Shown one piece after another: positions 11,605 to 19,934 of a DNA stretch of 64,000 bases (its first letter is position 1; each line of letters begins with the position of its first letter). The notes beneath the pieces were generated by a model. That model worked only from the letters and a program-made list of their open reading frames with translations. It made no database searches and was not told the origin of the DNA. The stretch lies in NCBI RefSeq assembly GCF_004025325.1, contig NZ_RSFE01000007.1, forward strand, positions 1 to 64,000, read 5' to 3'. The DNA is from Pseudidiomarina gelatinasegens. Its GTDB lineage: Bacteria; Pseudomonadota; Gammaproteobacteria; Enterobacterales; Alteromonadaceae. The position numbers were made by a program, and so were the translations under genes.

Positions 11605-12660
11605 ATGAAGTATTGGCGAAAGTACCACCCCGACATTGATGCAGCAGACCCGCGTTACAACCAAGTTTCGCTTATTTATAGCGTGCTGCTTATCATGGTG
11701 GCTTACTTTGGGATCATAGGGGTGCTGAATATCACCTTGTTCGATGCTGCGGATATCGCTTTTTACGACTTCATCGGCTTTACTCTCGGCGTCTCTATCT
11801 ATCTTTTCGTAAGCCGTGGCGGTAACTTTCAGGTGGCCAGTTGGGCCGTTATGGCCACCTTAATCATTATTCTTTTTGCGTTTGTGCACCTTGCGGAAGG
11901 CCGCAACTATTCATTGTTATGGGCAACCATGCTGCCACCCATTGCGTTTTTCTTATTGGGCCGAAGCGGTGGTAGCTGGATTAGCGGTTTGGTTTTTCTT
12001 TATTTCAGCTGGTATTTGTATCAACTGTTAAGCCAAGGGGTTACAGCAAACCTCTCACTAGGCGCCTTATTTAACTTTGTTGAAGTGGCCACGGCACAAA
12101 TCTTTCTATTTCGTTTTTATGAGCGCTCTCGCCAAGAAGCCTATGAACAGCTGCAAAAAACTTCAATTACAGACCCATTAACGGGCGTGTTTAACCGTCT
12201 GTATTTAGACAATTCCTTGAAGAAAGTGCTGTCGTTGGCTAGCCGCAACAAGCAGCCCGTTTCGGTATTGTTGATTGATGTGGATCATTTCAAGCGCATT
12301 AATGATGAACACGGGCACTTAGTTGGTGACGTGGTTTTGGTTGCGCTGTGCAAAATATTAAAAGAGGCAACCCGCGAATACGATTCGGTTGGGCGTTGGG
12401 GCGGGGAAGAGTTTCTAGTTATTTGCCCAAATACTAGCGAGGCGCAAGCCAAAGCACTCGGCGAACGTATTATTGAACAGGTGCGCGAAAAGGCCGTTAA
12501 TGGCGGTATTCACGTTACGGTAAGTATTGGTGCGGCAACGTTTAATCAAGTTGATGAAAAATCGATTGAGCGCTTGTTACAGGTTGCGGATAACAACATG
12601 TACAAAGCTAAAGCGGCAGGCCGCAACCAGGTGGTTAGCACCGCATCAGTGACCAGCTAG
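11605..12660 (+). CDS. Membrane diguanylate cyclase (GGDEF)
   Basis: 351 residues. The N-terminal half (about 25-180) has six hydrophobic segments forming a membrane sensor with no recognised ligand. The GGDEF domain begins at D-P-L-T-G-V-F-N-R near 190. The active site G-G-E-E-F is at 266-270, and an inhibitory I-site R-E-Y-D is at 257-260, five residues before it. The enzyme should therefore be active and feedback-inhibited by c-di-GMP. Upstream spacing from AAGG to the ATG is long, so translation may be weak. It ends tail-to-tail with the leftward unknown-membrane-protein gene across a hairpin. Confidence 0.92.
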   Translation: MKYWRKYHPDIDAADPRYNQVSLIYSVLLIMVAYFGIIGVLNITLFDAADIAFYDFIGFTLGVSIYLFVSRGGNFQVASWAVMATLIIILFAFVHLAEGRNYSLLWATMLPPIAFFLLGRSGGSWISGLVFLYFSWYLYQLLSQGVTANLSLGALFNFVEVATAQIFLFRFYERSRQEAYEQLQKTSITDPLTGVFNRLYLDNSLKKVLSLASRNKQPVSVLLIDVDHFKRINDEHGHLVGDVVLVALCKILKEATREYDSVGRWGGEEFLVICPNTSEAQAKALGERIIEQVREKAVNGGIHVTVSIGAATFNQVDEKSIERLLQVADNNMYKAKAAGRNQVVSTASVTS

Positions 12661-12670
12661 TCTGGTCACT
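12648..12670. terminator. Hairpin spanning the stop codons of two convergent genes
   Basis: AGTGACCAG (12648-12656) pairs with CTGGTCACT (12662-12670) around a 5-base loop. The stop codon of the diguanylate cyclase is in the loop and the stop of the leftward gene touches the other arm. There is no strong T-run, so termination efficiency is uncertain. Confidence 0.45.
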
Positions 12671-13617
12671 TATTCAATGTTCACACGAATAATGAACTTG
12701 AGAAATGAAAATGCCGCCACCAAAAACAACCACAAAAAGATCAAGCTTTCGTCATGTGCAAGCTTGGTCCAAATGCTGTTTTTTAGCATGATATCTTCTG
12801 ACTTGTAGCGCTGTATCACCCCCACATCGCCTTTGCCGTTGTAGGTAATGTTAATTCCCGGGTTTTCATCGATGTAAATAAACCCAGAGCTTTGCACCGA
12901 AGGCTCTTTAATAAAAAACTTATCACCCAATTCTAACGGGTACGGATCCGTCTGATAATACTGCCGTGAAAGCGCGCCCTTATCGGAAATAGTAACAGAA
13001 CCACTGTGAAGTATGGGCTCACGCACTGAAGCTTCTTTTACTTCACCACCAACAGTCATAATACCGTCAATGGGTAAGGTATAGCTTTGTGTATGTGAAG
13101 CTGTTAGTTCAAAGGCTTCGCAGTCGCTAAGTTCAATGCGTTCGTTGCTGTCGGTAAGCAGATAGCCAACGGGCGCTAATGAGTCTGAGCTCAGCGTAAT
13201 CCAAAGAGGCCCCGAGCCAACACGTTCTATGTACATTGATGTGTCACGCGCAATGCGTAGCTCACCACTCATGTTGGAGGTCTCGCTTCCACACTCGGCA
13301 TAACGTTTTGCAGACTCTAAGCGCCATGGCACAAAGGCACTGTCTTGGTATGAGTCGATGGTGACAATTTCGGAGCGGGCAGTCACGTTATAAAGCGTGT
13401 CAGGAGTCGCTAAAAATCGTGCTGAAATGAATAAAATATAGAGCAACAGTAGCCAAAATAGCCCAACCAGCACATGAATGAATAACTTAAATCGGCTCAG
13501 CGAAATACGGTCGCGAAACTCAGTCGCGGTATAGGGCAAATCCTCATTGGTTAAGAAAATACCCAGCAGGGCCTTGGCGCACTTTTGGAAGAAGCGTTTA
13601 ATTTTGGATAATGCCAT
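12670..13617 (-). CDS. Unknown two-TM protein, third gene of the DSFWS-repeat protease unit
   Basis: 315 residues with no family I recognise. A basic N-terminus (1-40) precedes a membrane segment at about 44-68. A large extracytoplasmic region of about 220 residues follows, rich in beta-strand-like Ser/Thr/Tyr stretches and with two cysteines (C-G near 109 and D-C-E near 153). A second membrane segment at about 292-310 ends in R-V-N-I-E. The topology suggests both ends in the cytoplasm and the bulk in the periplasm. Its ATG shares one base with the stop of the preceding gene (TAATG), so translation is coupled. The context suggests it anchors or receives the exported partners; this is inference. 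Confidence 0.6.
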   Translation of the reverse strand: MALSKIKRFFQKCAKALLGIFLTNEDLPYTATEFRDRISLSRFKLFIHVLVGLFWLLLLYILFISARFLATPDTLYNVTARSEIVTIDSYQDSAFVPWRLESAKRYAECGSETSNMSGELRIARDTSMYIERVGSGPLWITLSSDSLAPVGYLLTDSNERIELSDCEAFELTASHTQSYTLPIDGIMTVGGEVKEASVREPILHSGSVTISDKGALSRQYYQTDPYPLELGDKFFIKEPSVQSSGFIYIDENPGINITYNGKGDVGVIQRYKSEDIMLKNSIWTKLAHDESLIFLWLFLVAAFSFLKFIIRVNIE

Positions 13618-14306
13618 TAGTAAAACTCGATAAGTTCATCAGGAATGGCGCGCAGGTTGCGGCGTTTAATAATAACGCGCCGGAGTTCTTCGGCCATAAC
13701 ATCAGTGATTAAACATTCTTTGTCATACGAAACACGGTAGTTGCTGCGTAGGTCTTGGCACTTAACTGCTGCGCCGGGCTGCTTGTCACTTTTAAGTAAC
13801 GGCGTCGCAATGTCGCGTCGTGCGTTACTGCGCACAAAAATAGAAATGGCATTTAGTGAATTGGGCTTTCCCCATGCGCTGATCAAATAGTTGCCGTTTA
13901 GCTGTGCGCAATCCGGTTGTGCGGAGGTTAATAAACCGAGCTCACCAGCCGAGAAATCATTTAACTCACTGGTGTACTTAGTGGGGAACTCAATTGGCAC
14001 AACCCCTTCAACGTGCTCGGTAAAGGTATACTGATATTGGGATTTGTAGCGGCCGTCGGCACTACTCACAAACACACAAACCGAACCCAAGTAGGCGCGC
14101 GGGAAATAGATATGCGGTGTTATTTCGAAATTTACGTCCGTGAACTGTAGCCCTTTTAAGAACTGCCCCGATACCTTCACCGTGTCGCTGTATGACTCGC
14201 TGAATTCGCTGACTTGATTGGCGTTGGCAGTATTGTTGACAACGCTACCAAGTAAATGGGCTGAAAATGCCAGCCATAGACCCATGGTGAAAACGTGTTT
14301 AGTCAT
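13617..14306 (-). CDS. Unknown exported four-cysteine protein, second gene of the DSFWS-repeat protease unit
   Basis: 229 residues from the ATG at 14306; an upstream-extended frame exists but would overlap the preceding gene by over 150 bases. A signal peptide is likely (MTKHVFTMGLWLAFSAHLLG, then Ala/Asn-rich to about residue 30). The mature part has four cysteines (77, 133, 183, 198), enough for two disulphides, and a basic C-terminal helix around 205-219. I recognise no domain. The start overlaps the stop of the protease gene by 8 bases and its stop overlaps the next start, which argues for co-translation and a shared complex. Possible roles include inhibitor, substrate or scaffold of the protease; none is shown by sequence. 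Confidence 0.6.
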   Translation of the reverse strand: MTKHVFTMGLWLAFSAHLLGSVVNNTANANQVSEFSESYSDTVKVSGQFLKGLQFTDVNFEITPHIYFPRAYLGSVCVFVSSADGRYKSQYQYTFTEHVEGVVPIEFPTKYTSELNDFSAGELGLLTSAQPDCAQLNGNYLISAWGKPNSLNAISIFVRSNARRDIATPLLKSDKQPGAAVKCQDLRSNYRVSYDKECLITDVMAEELRRVIIKRRNLRAIPDELIEFY

Positions 14307-15918
14307 AATCAAACAACTTAAAGTAGAACGTTCCATGCCGTTGTAAGCCCGTGATGCGAATGATGTGCACATCGGACGAAAGCGGCGTGAATACAAAGCG
14401 ACTGTTATTGCCAGACCAGAATGAGTCGGAATAGCGCACCTCGCCGGTTTCATCAATCACTTCAAGCCGGAACTTTGTACTAAGCGATTGCGACTCAAGT
14501 TTGAAGTCGATAGGTGCATTAGCAGTCATCATCATGCGGTACTCGGCAACCGCGTTGTCCGCAATTTTGTTGGTGACAATGTCGCCCGCCGCGACCACAT
14601 TTTGCGCGCCGGTTAATGCTGTATTCGTGTTCCATTGGCTGACATTGATATCGGTTTGTCCGTAACCCTGAAGCCCAATTAACCGTACTGTATAGGCGTC
14701 ATTTTGCTGCGGCGTAAAGGCATAGGTATAGTTTCTGTTTGACCAAAAACTATCTTTATAGAGCTCATTGCCTGCGCTATCGATGATGTGAAGCGCGTAT
14801 TTGAAGCTACTTCCAGCCACTTCGTTGAGCGTGAATTCTGCGGGACTATTTGCTTCGCCGTTAAATGGGTATTCAGCAACTGCGTTGGGCGCTATTTTTA
14901 CTCGAATATTACCGGGTATTTCAAGTTGATTGCCTGCGCCGCGTAACTCCGCATCGAATGAAAAATCATTCATTTTAATATCAAATTTGCCGAAGTCTTG
15001 CAGGCCAATCACACGAACTGTGAATTCATCCGTTCTTGGTGGTGTAAAGGCAAAACTGTAGGCTCTGTTACTCCAGAAGCTATCTTCAAATAATTCATTT
15101 TCGCGCTTATCGAGTATTTGAATTGCAAATTTGACGCTATCAGAATCGAGTTCTGTTAGAACGAATTCTACGGGACTGTTTTCCTGCATTTTGACGCTGT
15201 AGTCTTTAATCTGGTTGGTCGCTAAACGCCCTGCTAGGTGCGAACTTGTGGTGGTTTCAGCATCGCCGTCAGCGGCTTTATCAGTTGTATTCTCCGAAGC
15301 TTCTTCATTGCTACTGATATCAAAATGTTTGTTCAGCATTGCCGTTAATGCATCGGCGCGATAGACAATACCGCCTGCGTCGTCCACCTCAAGCAAAACT
15401 CCCGCCGCCTGCTCGGCAACGAATAAAATACTGCCGCTATAGCCTTGCTTAAACGGCTCATCAGCACGTTCGGGTTTGATCGCTAAAAACTCACTGTCAT
15501 CCACAGCGCTTATGACTATTTTCGTTTGCAACACGCTGCCGTCAGCCAACCGAGTTTTTAAGACACCGTTTTGATACACTTCAAGTAGCTTGTTTAAATC
15601 ACTAACCTGCAAAAAAGTATTACGGTTGCATTGCGCTGCCGGAATATCAGCTTTCAAAATGGCCATGTCCACATCGAAAACATGTGTAACGTCGGCTGTG
15701 TGATATTGGCGTGTGGGTAACATTACGTTGGCAGATGTTGCGGTGCCCATGACATGATTTGGGGTTAACACGTAACACTGGTCGTCAACAAGGTAGTTAA
15801 ACCCTTGCCCGACATTGAAATCTGCAGAAACCAGCACATCTGAGGCAAGTGCGGGCGTAGTCAAACAGCATGAAAAAACTAAAAGTGATGCAATAGGGCG
15901 ATTTGTGAATAGCTTCAT
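14299..15918 (-). CDS. Secreted trypsin-like protease with three tandem DSFWS repeats
   Basis: 539 residues with a signal peptide (1-26). Residues of about 27-200 resemble a chymotrypsin-fold protease: His55 in L-T-P-N-H-V, Asp84 in F-D-V-D-M-A-I and Ser161 in Q-G-Y-S-G-S are in the right order and surroundings. A Ser/Thr/Asp-rich linker (201-228) leads to three repeats of about 110 residues, each with an N-terminal S-P-V/A-E-F strand, the motif D-S-F-W-S (279, 389, 498), F-T-P and then R-x-x-G-L-Q. They recall pre-peptidase C-terminal (PPC) beta-sandwiches. The protein is probably periplasmic or secreted. It is the first gene of a coupled three-gene unit with its own promoter. No clear ribosome binding site precedes the ATG. 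Confidence 0.75.
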   Translation of the reverse strand: MKLFTNRPIASLLVFSCCLTTPALASDVLVSADFNVGQGFNYLVDDQCYVLTPNHVMGTATSANVMLPTRQYHTADVTHVFDVDMAILKADIPAAQCNRNTFLQVSDLNKLLEVYQNGVLKTRLADGSVLQTKIVISAVDDSEFLAIKPERADEPFKQGYSGSILFVAEQAAGVLLEVDDAGGIVYRADALTAMLNKHFDISSNEEASENTTDKAADGDAETTTSSHLAGRLATNQIKDYSVKMQENSPVEFVLTELDSDSVKFAIQILDKRENELFEDSFWSNRAYSFAFTPPRTDEFTVRVIGLQDFGKFDIKMNDFSFDAELRGAGNQLEIPGNIRVKIAPNAVAEYPFNGEANSPAEFTLNEVAGSSFKYALHIIDSAGNELYKDSFWSNRNYTYAFTPQQNDAYTVRLIGLQGYGQTDINVSQWNTNTALTGAQNVVAAGDIVTNKIADNAVAEYRMMMTANAPIDFKLESQSLSTKFRLEVIDETGEVRYSDSFWSGNNSRFVFTPLSSDVHIIRITGLQRHGTFYFKLFDYD

Positions 15919-15946
15919 AACGTTTTTATTATTGGGAGTTTCCCCA

Positions 15947-15976
15947 TTTATAGTATTCTTTGTTAGCCACCGTCAA
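15947..15976 (-). promoter_or_regulatory. Promoter of the DSFWS-repeat protease unit
   Basis: On the minus strand TTGACG (15971-15976) and TATAAA (15947-15952) are separated by 18 bases. The start codon is 29 bases further on. The leader contains a small GGGG-AAAC-TCCC hairpin in place of a ribosome binding site. Confidence 0.6.
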
Positions 15977-16000
15977 CAATTTTGAAACAATATTGCCCCC

Positions 16001-16793: not shown

Positions 16794-17567
16794 ATGACAA
16801 AGAAATATAAATCAATATCGCCTCTAACAAGTAAGCCTCTGCGAAACCCTGGCGAATCTCTCGATCACAAGATAATCGACATGCTCGATAAGTCGGTGAT
16901 TCACGTATTAATAATCGCCGTGATTGTTACGACAATCACGCAAGCGTGGGTAGCTTGGTATCATCAGGAAATAGCTGATCCGCTAATACTTTCAATAGTA
17001 CTCTCACCGGTTATTTTATTTTCACTGGTGCGCATTTTTTTCGCAGTCCGCGAGTCTAAACGCATCAAGTTAGGGCGTGATGGTGAAAAAGTGGTGGGTC
17101 AATTCCTTGAGCGCTTACGCCTTGATGGCGCTCAAGTATTTCACGACATTGAAGGTGAAAACTTTAATCTTGATCACGTGGTAATTCATCGTTCTGGGAT
17201 TTTTGTGATTGAAACAAAAACCATGTCCAAACCCGAAAAAGGCAAGTCCGTTTTGTTCTACAATGGCAAGCAAATTTTACGCGGTGGCAAACCGATAAAG
17301 AGTGATGCGGTGACGCAAGTTAAGGCAGCTAGCTCATGGTTGCATAACCTATTGTTTGAAAGTACCGGTAAGCGTTTTGCAATAAAAGGTATTGTTGTGT
17401 TCCCTGGGTGGTACGTAAAAACAACTGAACTAGGCAAATCAGCTGAAATTTCGGTCTTAAACCCACGTGTGTTGCCAAACTATATTGGTAAGAGCAGGCA
17501 GCAGTTGCGTGAGGATGAGTTGCATATGTGTGCGTACCATTTGAGCCGCTATATTCGAACGAAGTAA
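16794..17567 (+). CDS. Membrane protein with NERD nuclease-related domain
   Basis: 257 residues. Two hydrophobic segments (about 34-57 and 63-84) anchor the N-terminus. A NERD domain starts at G-R-D-G-E-K-V-V-G-Q-F-L near 96 and shows the restriction-endonuclease-like core: Asp in F-N-L-D-H-V-V and the E-T-K of V-I-E-T-K. NERD is named for its relation to Holliday-junction resolvase and Mrr-type nucleases; most members have no known role. The domain should face the cytoplasm. GGGA precedes the ATG. It stands alone between upp and katG, and I see no defence genes nearby, so DNA processing is only a family expectation. Confidence 0.85.
   Translation: MTKKYKSISPLTSKPLRNPGESLDHKIIDMLDKSVIHVLIIAVIVTTITQAWVAWYHQEIADPLILSIVLSPVILFSLVRIFFAVRESKRIKLGRDGEKVVGQFLERLRLDGAQVFHDIEGENFNLDHVVIHRSGIFVIETKTMSKPEKGKSVLFYNGKQILRGGKPIKSDAVTQVKAASSWLHNLLFESTGKRFAIKGIVVFPGWYVKTTELGKSAEISVLNPRVLPNYIGKSRQQLREDELHMCAYHLSRYIRTK

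Positions 17568-17669: not shown

Positions 17670-19934
<2,265 letters not shown>

Follow-up and report, generated by a model that had tools for sequence, protein, structure and literature searches.

Described bacterial defence systems mostly act in the cytoplasm. In the LapG/LapD pair, the protease LapG is of the cysteine type, and cyclic-di-GMP domains are found in LapD. Trypsin-like peptidases with co-occurring Trypco1/2 proteins and exchangeable partner domains are part of the VMAP/iSTAND ternary conflict systems (PMC7159879). The present analysis concerns three adjoining genes, named C, A and B, on a stretch of 64,000 nucleotides of Pseudidiomarina gelatinasegens (the window; positions 1 to 64,000 of contig NZ_RSFE01000007.1), which lies within a genome of 2.47 Mb. 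An original prediction, drawn from the letters of the window alone, had proposed an undescribed secreted system made of a repeat-bearing protease and two coupled proteins. The three genes are a real, conserved and so far undescribed envelope module of uncertain purpose; no description was found in the family databases or in the literature searched, which excluded preprints and most subscription papers. At somewhat less than even odds (about 0.45), they would form an accessory unit that moves horizontally and encodes a protease complex of the cell envelope, protection against foreign agents being its most likely purpose. The genes are arranged as follows:

14299-15918, minus strand: gene C, predicted exported trypsin/HtrA-like protease of 539 residues with three C-terminal repeats
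13617-14306, minus strand: gene A, predicted exported protein of 229 residues from its ATG
12670-13617, minus strand: gene B, predicted membrane-periplasm-membrane protein of 315 residues

Co-occurrence and distribution of the module

The coupling of the three genes was borne out by a single final scan, in which A, B and C adjoined one another at 20 of the 21 loci. The exception (genome G361) was a 4.7-kb contig ending in a 69-residue open frame at the expected place of B, which was not scored by the profile, and at the Bosea locus the match to A was split over two reading frames. Not all 21 loci are independent, since the two Rhizobium copies were near-identical (B 99.4% alike) and the proteins of L012, L013 and L014 (the same places as L005, L006 and L007) were very similar. 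Chance or mis-annotation was rejected because of this co-occurrence. Likewise, all 12 loci found by means of A (eight in genomes and four on plasmids) had an adjoining protease, so that this partner was not found mostly on its own. The window genes overlap by 8 bases (C and A) and 1 base (A and B), as had been read from the coordinates, suggesting co-transcription. The common promoter also put forward remained unsupported, as a sigma-70 scan gave four promoter-like sites, fewer than the average of 6.0 for shuffled sequences.

Module hosts included Pseudidiomarina/Idiomarina, Vibrio, Pseudoalteromonas, Rhizobium, Bosea and further Pseudomonadota. A search with the window protease retrieved 8 of 59 relatives, all within the genus, and the profile of B retrieved the same eight among 26 genomes of the genus. 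With the profile of A (E value 1e-3), matches were restricted to 2 of 394 genomes of the order, 4 of 369 of the class and 3 of 398 of the phylum, the window genome being counted each time. A protease-domain profile, run over the order genomes at the stricter E value of 1e-8, found the same two of the 394.

Two types could be distinguished within the genus. The first, with gene order C-A-B and a repeat-bearing protease, was found in the window genome, P. tainanensis (G011) and P. marina (G023). The second, from five genomes, displayed the order A-B-C, a shorter protease tail and a convergent fourth gene, D. Plasmid-borne modules were identified on Vibrio tubiashii pFP31, Vibrio sp. 09022 p09022A, Pseudoalteromonas shioyasakiensis p1, two Rhizobium leguminosarum plasmids and a conjugative plasmid of Bosea vestrisii, the latter being the one additional module found in plasmid searches with four further members, which otherwise gave known modules or none. 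Two cyanobacterial matches from the plasmid searches covered the repeat region only, and neither the window protease nor A had a match in phage records.

Pairwise distance matrices of A, B and C correlated at 0.93-0.94 over 15 modules, a level reached by none of 5000 permutations, and at 0.86-0.89 without two close modules, showing joint inheritance of the three genes, so that the unit moves as a whole. Window A resembled its counterparts in V. tubiashii (32%) and G361 (34%) more than those of the second type in its own genus (20-28%); similarly, window B was nearer to V. tubiashii (38%) than to the second type (17-22%). These levels point to horizontal transfer rather than descent within the genus.

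The surroundings of the module in the window comprise the following features:

11605-12660: GGDEF gene, one flank of the module
12661-16000: extra stretch with the module, bounded by the GGDEF and upp stop codons
16001-16630: upp, the other flank

The GGDEF gene and upp abut in P. donghaiensis (G012), with nothing in the place of the approximately 3.3 kb present in the window, and the module is regarded as accessory because of this empty site; P. donghaiensis carries a second-type module elsewhere. A link with cyclic-di-GMP through the GGDEF neighbor was rejected on the basis of the same arrangement.

Catalytic domain of protease C

The catalytic features of the window protease were placed by means of an alignment of 18 related proteases, together with domain alignments for the domain limits:

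15310-15843, minus strand: protease domain, residues 26-203
15754-15756, minus strand: codon of His55
15667-15669, minus strand: codon of Asp84
15436-15438, minus strand: codon of Ser161, in the motif GYSGS starting at residue 159

The predicted triad His55/Asp84/Ser161 proved invariant in all 18 proteases, and so were G37, C48, C97, G159, G162 and D189, nine positions in total. The His-Asp-Ser order with GxSG, a hallmark of the trypsin type, was thus present throughout, a pattern that would be expected of an active, disulfide-bonded enzyme. The family is assigned to the trypsin type because of this triad, although scores remained under the curated Pfam level: the window protease matched Trypsin_2 with an E value of 6.3e-4 (20.9 bits, cut-off 27.6), and only 5 of the 18 members gave a trypsin-type match at 0.01 or better, the best at 4.1e-4 (21.6 bits). 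The export of C and A that had been predicted agrees with N-terminal signals judged by eye, and a plain hydropathy scan also marked the N-termini of the window proteins.

Among solved structures, the family profile best matched 'Probable serine protease HtrA1' (7vyz; E 6e-4, profile positions 24-177), and 27 HtrA/Deg chains were matched at 0.1 or better. As HtrA/DegP proteases are its closest solved relatives, the module could be an envelope quality-control or stress-sensing protease comparable to DegS or DegP, with A and B presenting or sensing misfolded proteins and C cleaving them. This explanation is improbable: no PDZ domain was listed for the 18 members (25 of the 27 families matched at 0.01 were listed), the unit shows an accessory distribution with an empty site, and the presumed binding stretches of the tail (see below) diversify between close relatives, unlike what is expected of a housekeeping function.

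Partner proteins A, B and D

The four cysteines noticed in A (77, 133, 183 and 198) are part of a conserved pattern. C183 and C198 were invariant in the 15 aligned members and C77 and C133 were present in at least 90%, the latter two being lost together in a single member (Vibrio p09022A), in the manner of two cysteines bonded to each other. A is probably disulfide-bonded. The two hydrophobic segments predicted in B (residues 40-72 and 290-315, separated by about 217 residues) recur in the family, two transmembrane segments being predicted in the B proteins of all 15 modules scanned.

D represents a fourth family, also exported by prediction, and was found in 14 of 21 loci: five second-type Idiomarina loci, Pseudoalteromonas, both Rhizobium copies, Bosea and G658, with both-sided neighbors at G588 C14, G574, G811 and G1052. 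The other seven loci, all with long repeat or pentapeptide tails and including the short contig G361, showed no D. When whole genomes were searched for D, 5 of the 9 examined gave a match.

A, B and D match no Pfam family convincingly. Single-sequence scans of window A and B against Pfam and NCBIfam gave nothing above cut-off, C gave only sub-threshold matches, and the aligned members of A (15), B (14) and D (9) gave only single stray Pfam matches. No convincing relative of A or B was found among solved structures, and the start of D weakly resembled designed alpha-helical repeat proteins (E 0.002).

Protease tails

The tail of the window protease consists of three repeats:

14923-15246, minus strand: repeat 1, residues 225-332, DSFWS at 279
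14593-14916, minus strand: repeat 2, residues 335-442, DSFWS at 389, with the best PPC-like stretch at 350-413
14302-14589, minus strand: repeat 3, residues 444-539, DSFWS at 498

The spacings of 110 and 109 residues read from the window were reproduced by all three motifs (DSFWS at 279/389/498, FTP at 291/401/510 and GLQ at 305/415/524). The repeats themselves were kept in the two nearest orthologues; the DSFWS letters were not, and YDFYS, YDFYN, GDFYT or GEFYS were found instead. Against Pfam PPC (PF04151), the window protein gave an E value of 4.6e-4 (21.5 bits, under the cut-off of 25.9). The proteases of G361 and V. tubiashii had six detected repeats each; Filamin and GOLD were among the other beta-sandwich families to which these repeats gave stray matches.

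Other members carry tails of other types. F5_F8_type_C was matched by 3 of 18 proteases (G588 C14, P. donghaiensis and I. loihiensis) at 0.0014 or lower, the best at 1.6e-4 and all under 28.2 bits. A profile built from four F5/8C-like tails also matched those of G658 (E 1e-17) and G588 C14 (E 2e-10), and did not match those of G574, Bosea, G811 and Rhizobium (E 0.07 to 1.3), which count as unassigned; the F5/8C-like label thus fits only part of the short tails. The end of the G1052 protease was SH3_3-like (E 6.5e-5, 23.5 bits, under the cut-off of 27). Genome G588 hosts two different module copies, and the second has a pentapeptide-repeat tail well above cut-off (E 1.9e-20). By these matches, the tails of C differ between members, being PPC-like repeats, F5/8C-like, pentapeptide, SH3-like or unassigned. 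As to the gene content of the two G588 loci (L051 and L052), D accompanies the copy with the F5/8C-like tail and was not seen on the 12.5-kb stretch of the pentapeptide copy. In Vibrio sp. 09022 (L090 10645-12645), four repeats that are almost identical by eye, unlike those of the window protein, suggest recent repeat expansion or conversion.

A rival explanation is surface or extracellular feeding and adhesion, C being then a secreted adhesive protease whose tail binds substrate or surface glycans, with A as inhibitor or chaperone and B aiding export or display. PPC domains have been recorded in subtilisins of Idiomarina loihiensis and Pseudoalteromonas and, separately, in one trypsin (PMC2605481). 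Several module hosts are marine by name, and C and A look exported. We nevertheless consider this role rather unlikely, for the unit is rare at every rank sampled, the protease family was not found outside A-bearing genomes at the threshold and in the order given above, and two unlike copies exist within one genome (G588).

Co-variation within the repeat array

The three repeats of each of three orthologues (window, P. tainanensis and P. marina) were compared over 95 ungapped columns. Repeats were generally more alike by position across orthologues (0.44-0.82) than within one protein (0.32-0.42). In 8 of the 95 columns this relation was reversed, the residues of a protein's own repeats matching each other more closely than those of other proteins (for example S/Q,N/R; K/R/R; S/D/D,E; W/Y/Y; Q/R/S), and all eight were confined to three brief stretches (columns 38-40, 57-62 and 84-85 of the alignment). 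When labels were freely shuffled within repeat position, a mean of 1.9 such columns was obtained and a fraction of 0.0002 of 5000 shuffles reached eight, while the total within-protein agreement of 309 was above all of them (maximum 302). A stricter shuffle that preserved the kinship of P. marina with P. tainanensis gave a mean of 3.6, with fractions of 0.0011 (eight columns) and 0.00045 (total) among 20000.

The shared residues were written with different codons, serine as AGC, AGT and TCA at one motif position and glutamine as CAA and CAG. Such codon use speaks for selection at the protein level and not for recent DNA copying; recent gene conversion as the source of the alike repeats in the window protein was rejected on this ground. 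At the co-varying places, the repeats of G361 and of V. tubiashii each have shared letters of their own, to which lineage-specific duplication may contribute. From the weak matches to PPC, Filamin and similar families, the co-varying stretches would be loops of a beta-sandwich. The simplest reading is that they form several like binding sites for one ligand, which would differ between species. The earlier suggestion that the repeats may bind a ligand gains support from the co-varying stretches.

Mobility and genomic neighborhood

Traces of mobility were observed at several loci. The G1052 module (L058 3859-9293, order C-D-A-B) lies between direct repeats of 443 bp that are 92% identical and represent a helicase-like gene at its 3' end. 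The arrangement looks as though the cassette had brought along a second copy of the gene end and could be removed again through recombination. The module of Vibrio p09022A is located between two recombinase genes, on a plasmid that also has a restriction-modification pair. Comparison of the flanks at the Vibrio p09022A, Pseudoalteromonas and Bosea loci showed no repeat of note. The module showed no foreign base composition (G+C 0.46 versus 0.485 for the window).

Ten selected neighbor proteins from four loci were scanned with PADLOC. A neighbor of the Pseudoalteromonas module matched a type IV restriction enzyme model (682 bits) and one of the Bosea module matched 'Upx' (257 bits). In V. tubiashii, a type VI secretion cluster lies some 4 kb away from the module, a proximity that would fit antagonism between bacteria, with C as a toxic protease and A and/or B as immunity proteins. 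Such a role is very unlikely, as only one of six annotated loci adjoins a type VI cluster and as C and A seem to bear export signals of their own, which are superfluous for type VI cargo.

Lipoprotein-like genes beside the A-B-C-D modules of P. donghaiensis (L012 6396-9362) and I. loihiensis SN11 (L015 392-2393) presumably resemble the LPP20/CsgG type. In the window, the product of 16794-17567 is one that we take to be nuclease-related (NERD); a NERD-like gene stands beside upp in the window and in 5 of 21 other genomes of the genus with a upp locus (L069-L073), two of these five holding the module at that place. The product of 17712-19934 resembles a catalase-peroxidase, and its start looks like an export signal by eye.

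Proposed mechanism and purpose

A working model can be outlined from the features above. B would anchor the complex on the periplasmic face and A may serve as a dedicated soluble adaptor or regulator, the tail of C being the part that would recognize a ligand. In the window type, the PPC-like array with its three co-varying stretches would form like binding sites, allowing multivalent binding to a repetitive ligand such as a surface glycan, or a particle or protein array. Ligand binding would bring the protease near its substrate or switch it on there, and the envelope might thereby be protected against something foreign, namely a phage, a competitor or its products.

The protective purpose is favored because the unit is rare, patchy, mobile, partly plasmid-borne and sometimes found beside restriction or candidate defence genes, and because the presumed recognition surface changes between close relatives. 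It is the least certain step of the model, the link with defence being suggestive only, and several observations weigh against it. Neighbors were mostly ordinary by eye at the loci of the window genome, Rhizobium, G658, G588 and G811, and the defence-neighbor observation comes without a matched control. No PADLOC 2.0.0 model matched the window protease or its partners A and B, nor did any match seven further proteins (A, B and D) from three relatives, and the 18 proteases matched six unrelated models, one member each, with no family-wide match. As for the repeats, a crude test in which the nine residues of each column were all shuffled did not separate the signal (12% of 2000 reached eight), neighboring columns are not independent, so that the shuffle fractions are guides, and the likeness of the stretches could stem from contacts between neighboring repeats.

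The most far-reaching interpretation, and one less likely than not, is that Pseudomonadota have here a previously unrecognized class of conflict systems acting outside the cytoplasm. The mobile cassette of such a system would encode three or four dedicated envelope proteins, among them an HtrA-like protease. Its interchangeable tail, bearing like and fast-changing binding sites in repeated form, would recognize a foreign or changing surface structure and so set off proteolysis outside the cytoplasm. If true, a mobile modular protease system confined to the envelope, with recognition tails diversifying as arrays of like sites, would provide a further layer at the surfaces that invaders encounter. 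Should the purpose be another, the unannotated families A, B and D gain gene partners, a compartment and a testable mechanism.

Comparison with known systems

The general plan of an inner-membrane protein and a periplasmic protease recalls LapG/LapD. However, B is without a recognized cytoplasmic domain, whereas LapD has its cyclic-di-GMP domains, and C has a serine-type triad in place of a cysteine protease.

As in the VMAP/iSTAND systems, going by their description, a trypsin-like peptidase is accompanied by dedicated co-occurring proteins, to which Trypco1/2 can be likened by description, and by exchangeable partner domains. The systems described there have vWA, MoxR or other NTP-dependent parts, whereas the parts of the present module look exported or membrane-bound. 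No vWA, MoxR, STAND or GTPase part was recognized in A, B and D, which gave only stray Pfam matches, and none of these parts was among the product names of neighbors at the six annotated loci, to which this check was confined.

PPC-domain proteases, in which a trypsin or subtilisin precedes C-terminal PPC domains, resemble the window protease, where PPC-like domains, sub-threshold in score, follow the catalytic part. C differs from them in being accompanied by A and B at the loci read, and the tails of the relatives of C are F5/8C-like, pentapeptide or SH3-like.

The closest likeness in the catalytic part is with the HtrA/Deg proteases (family S1; DegP, DegQ, DegS and mycobacterial HtrA1), which share the trypsin-type triad, the profile match and an export signal, the latter judged by eye. 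C differs from them in having no detected PDZ domain, other tails, and two or three dedicated partner proteins. Though filed under no known system, the module could work like a recognition-coupled HtrA protease.

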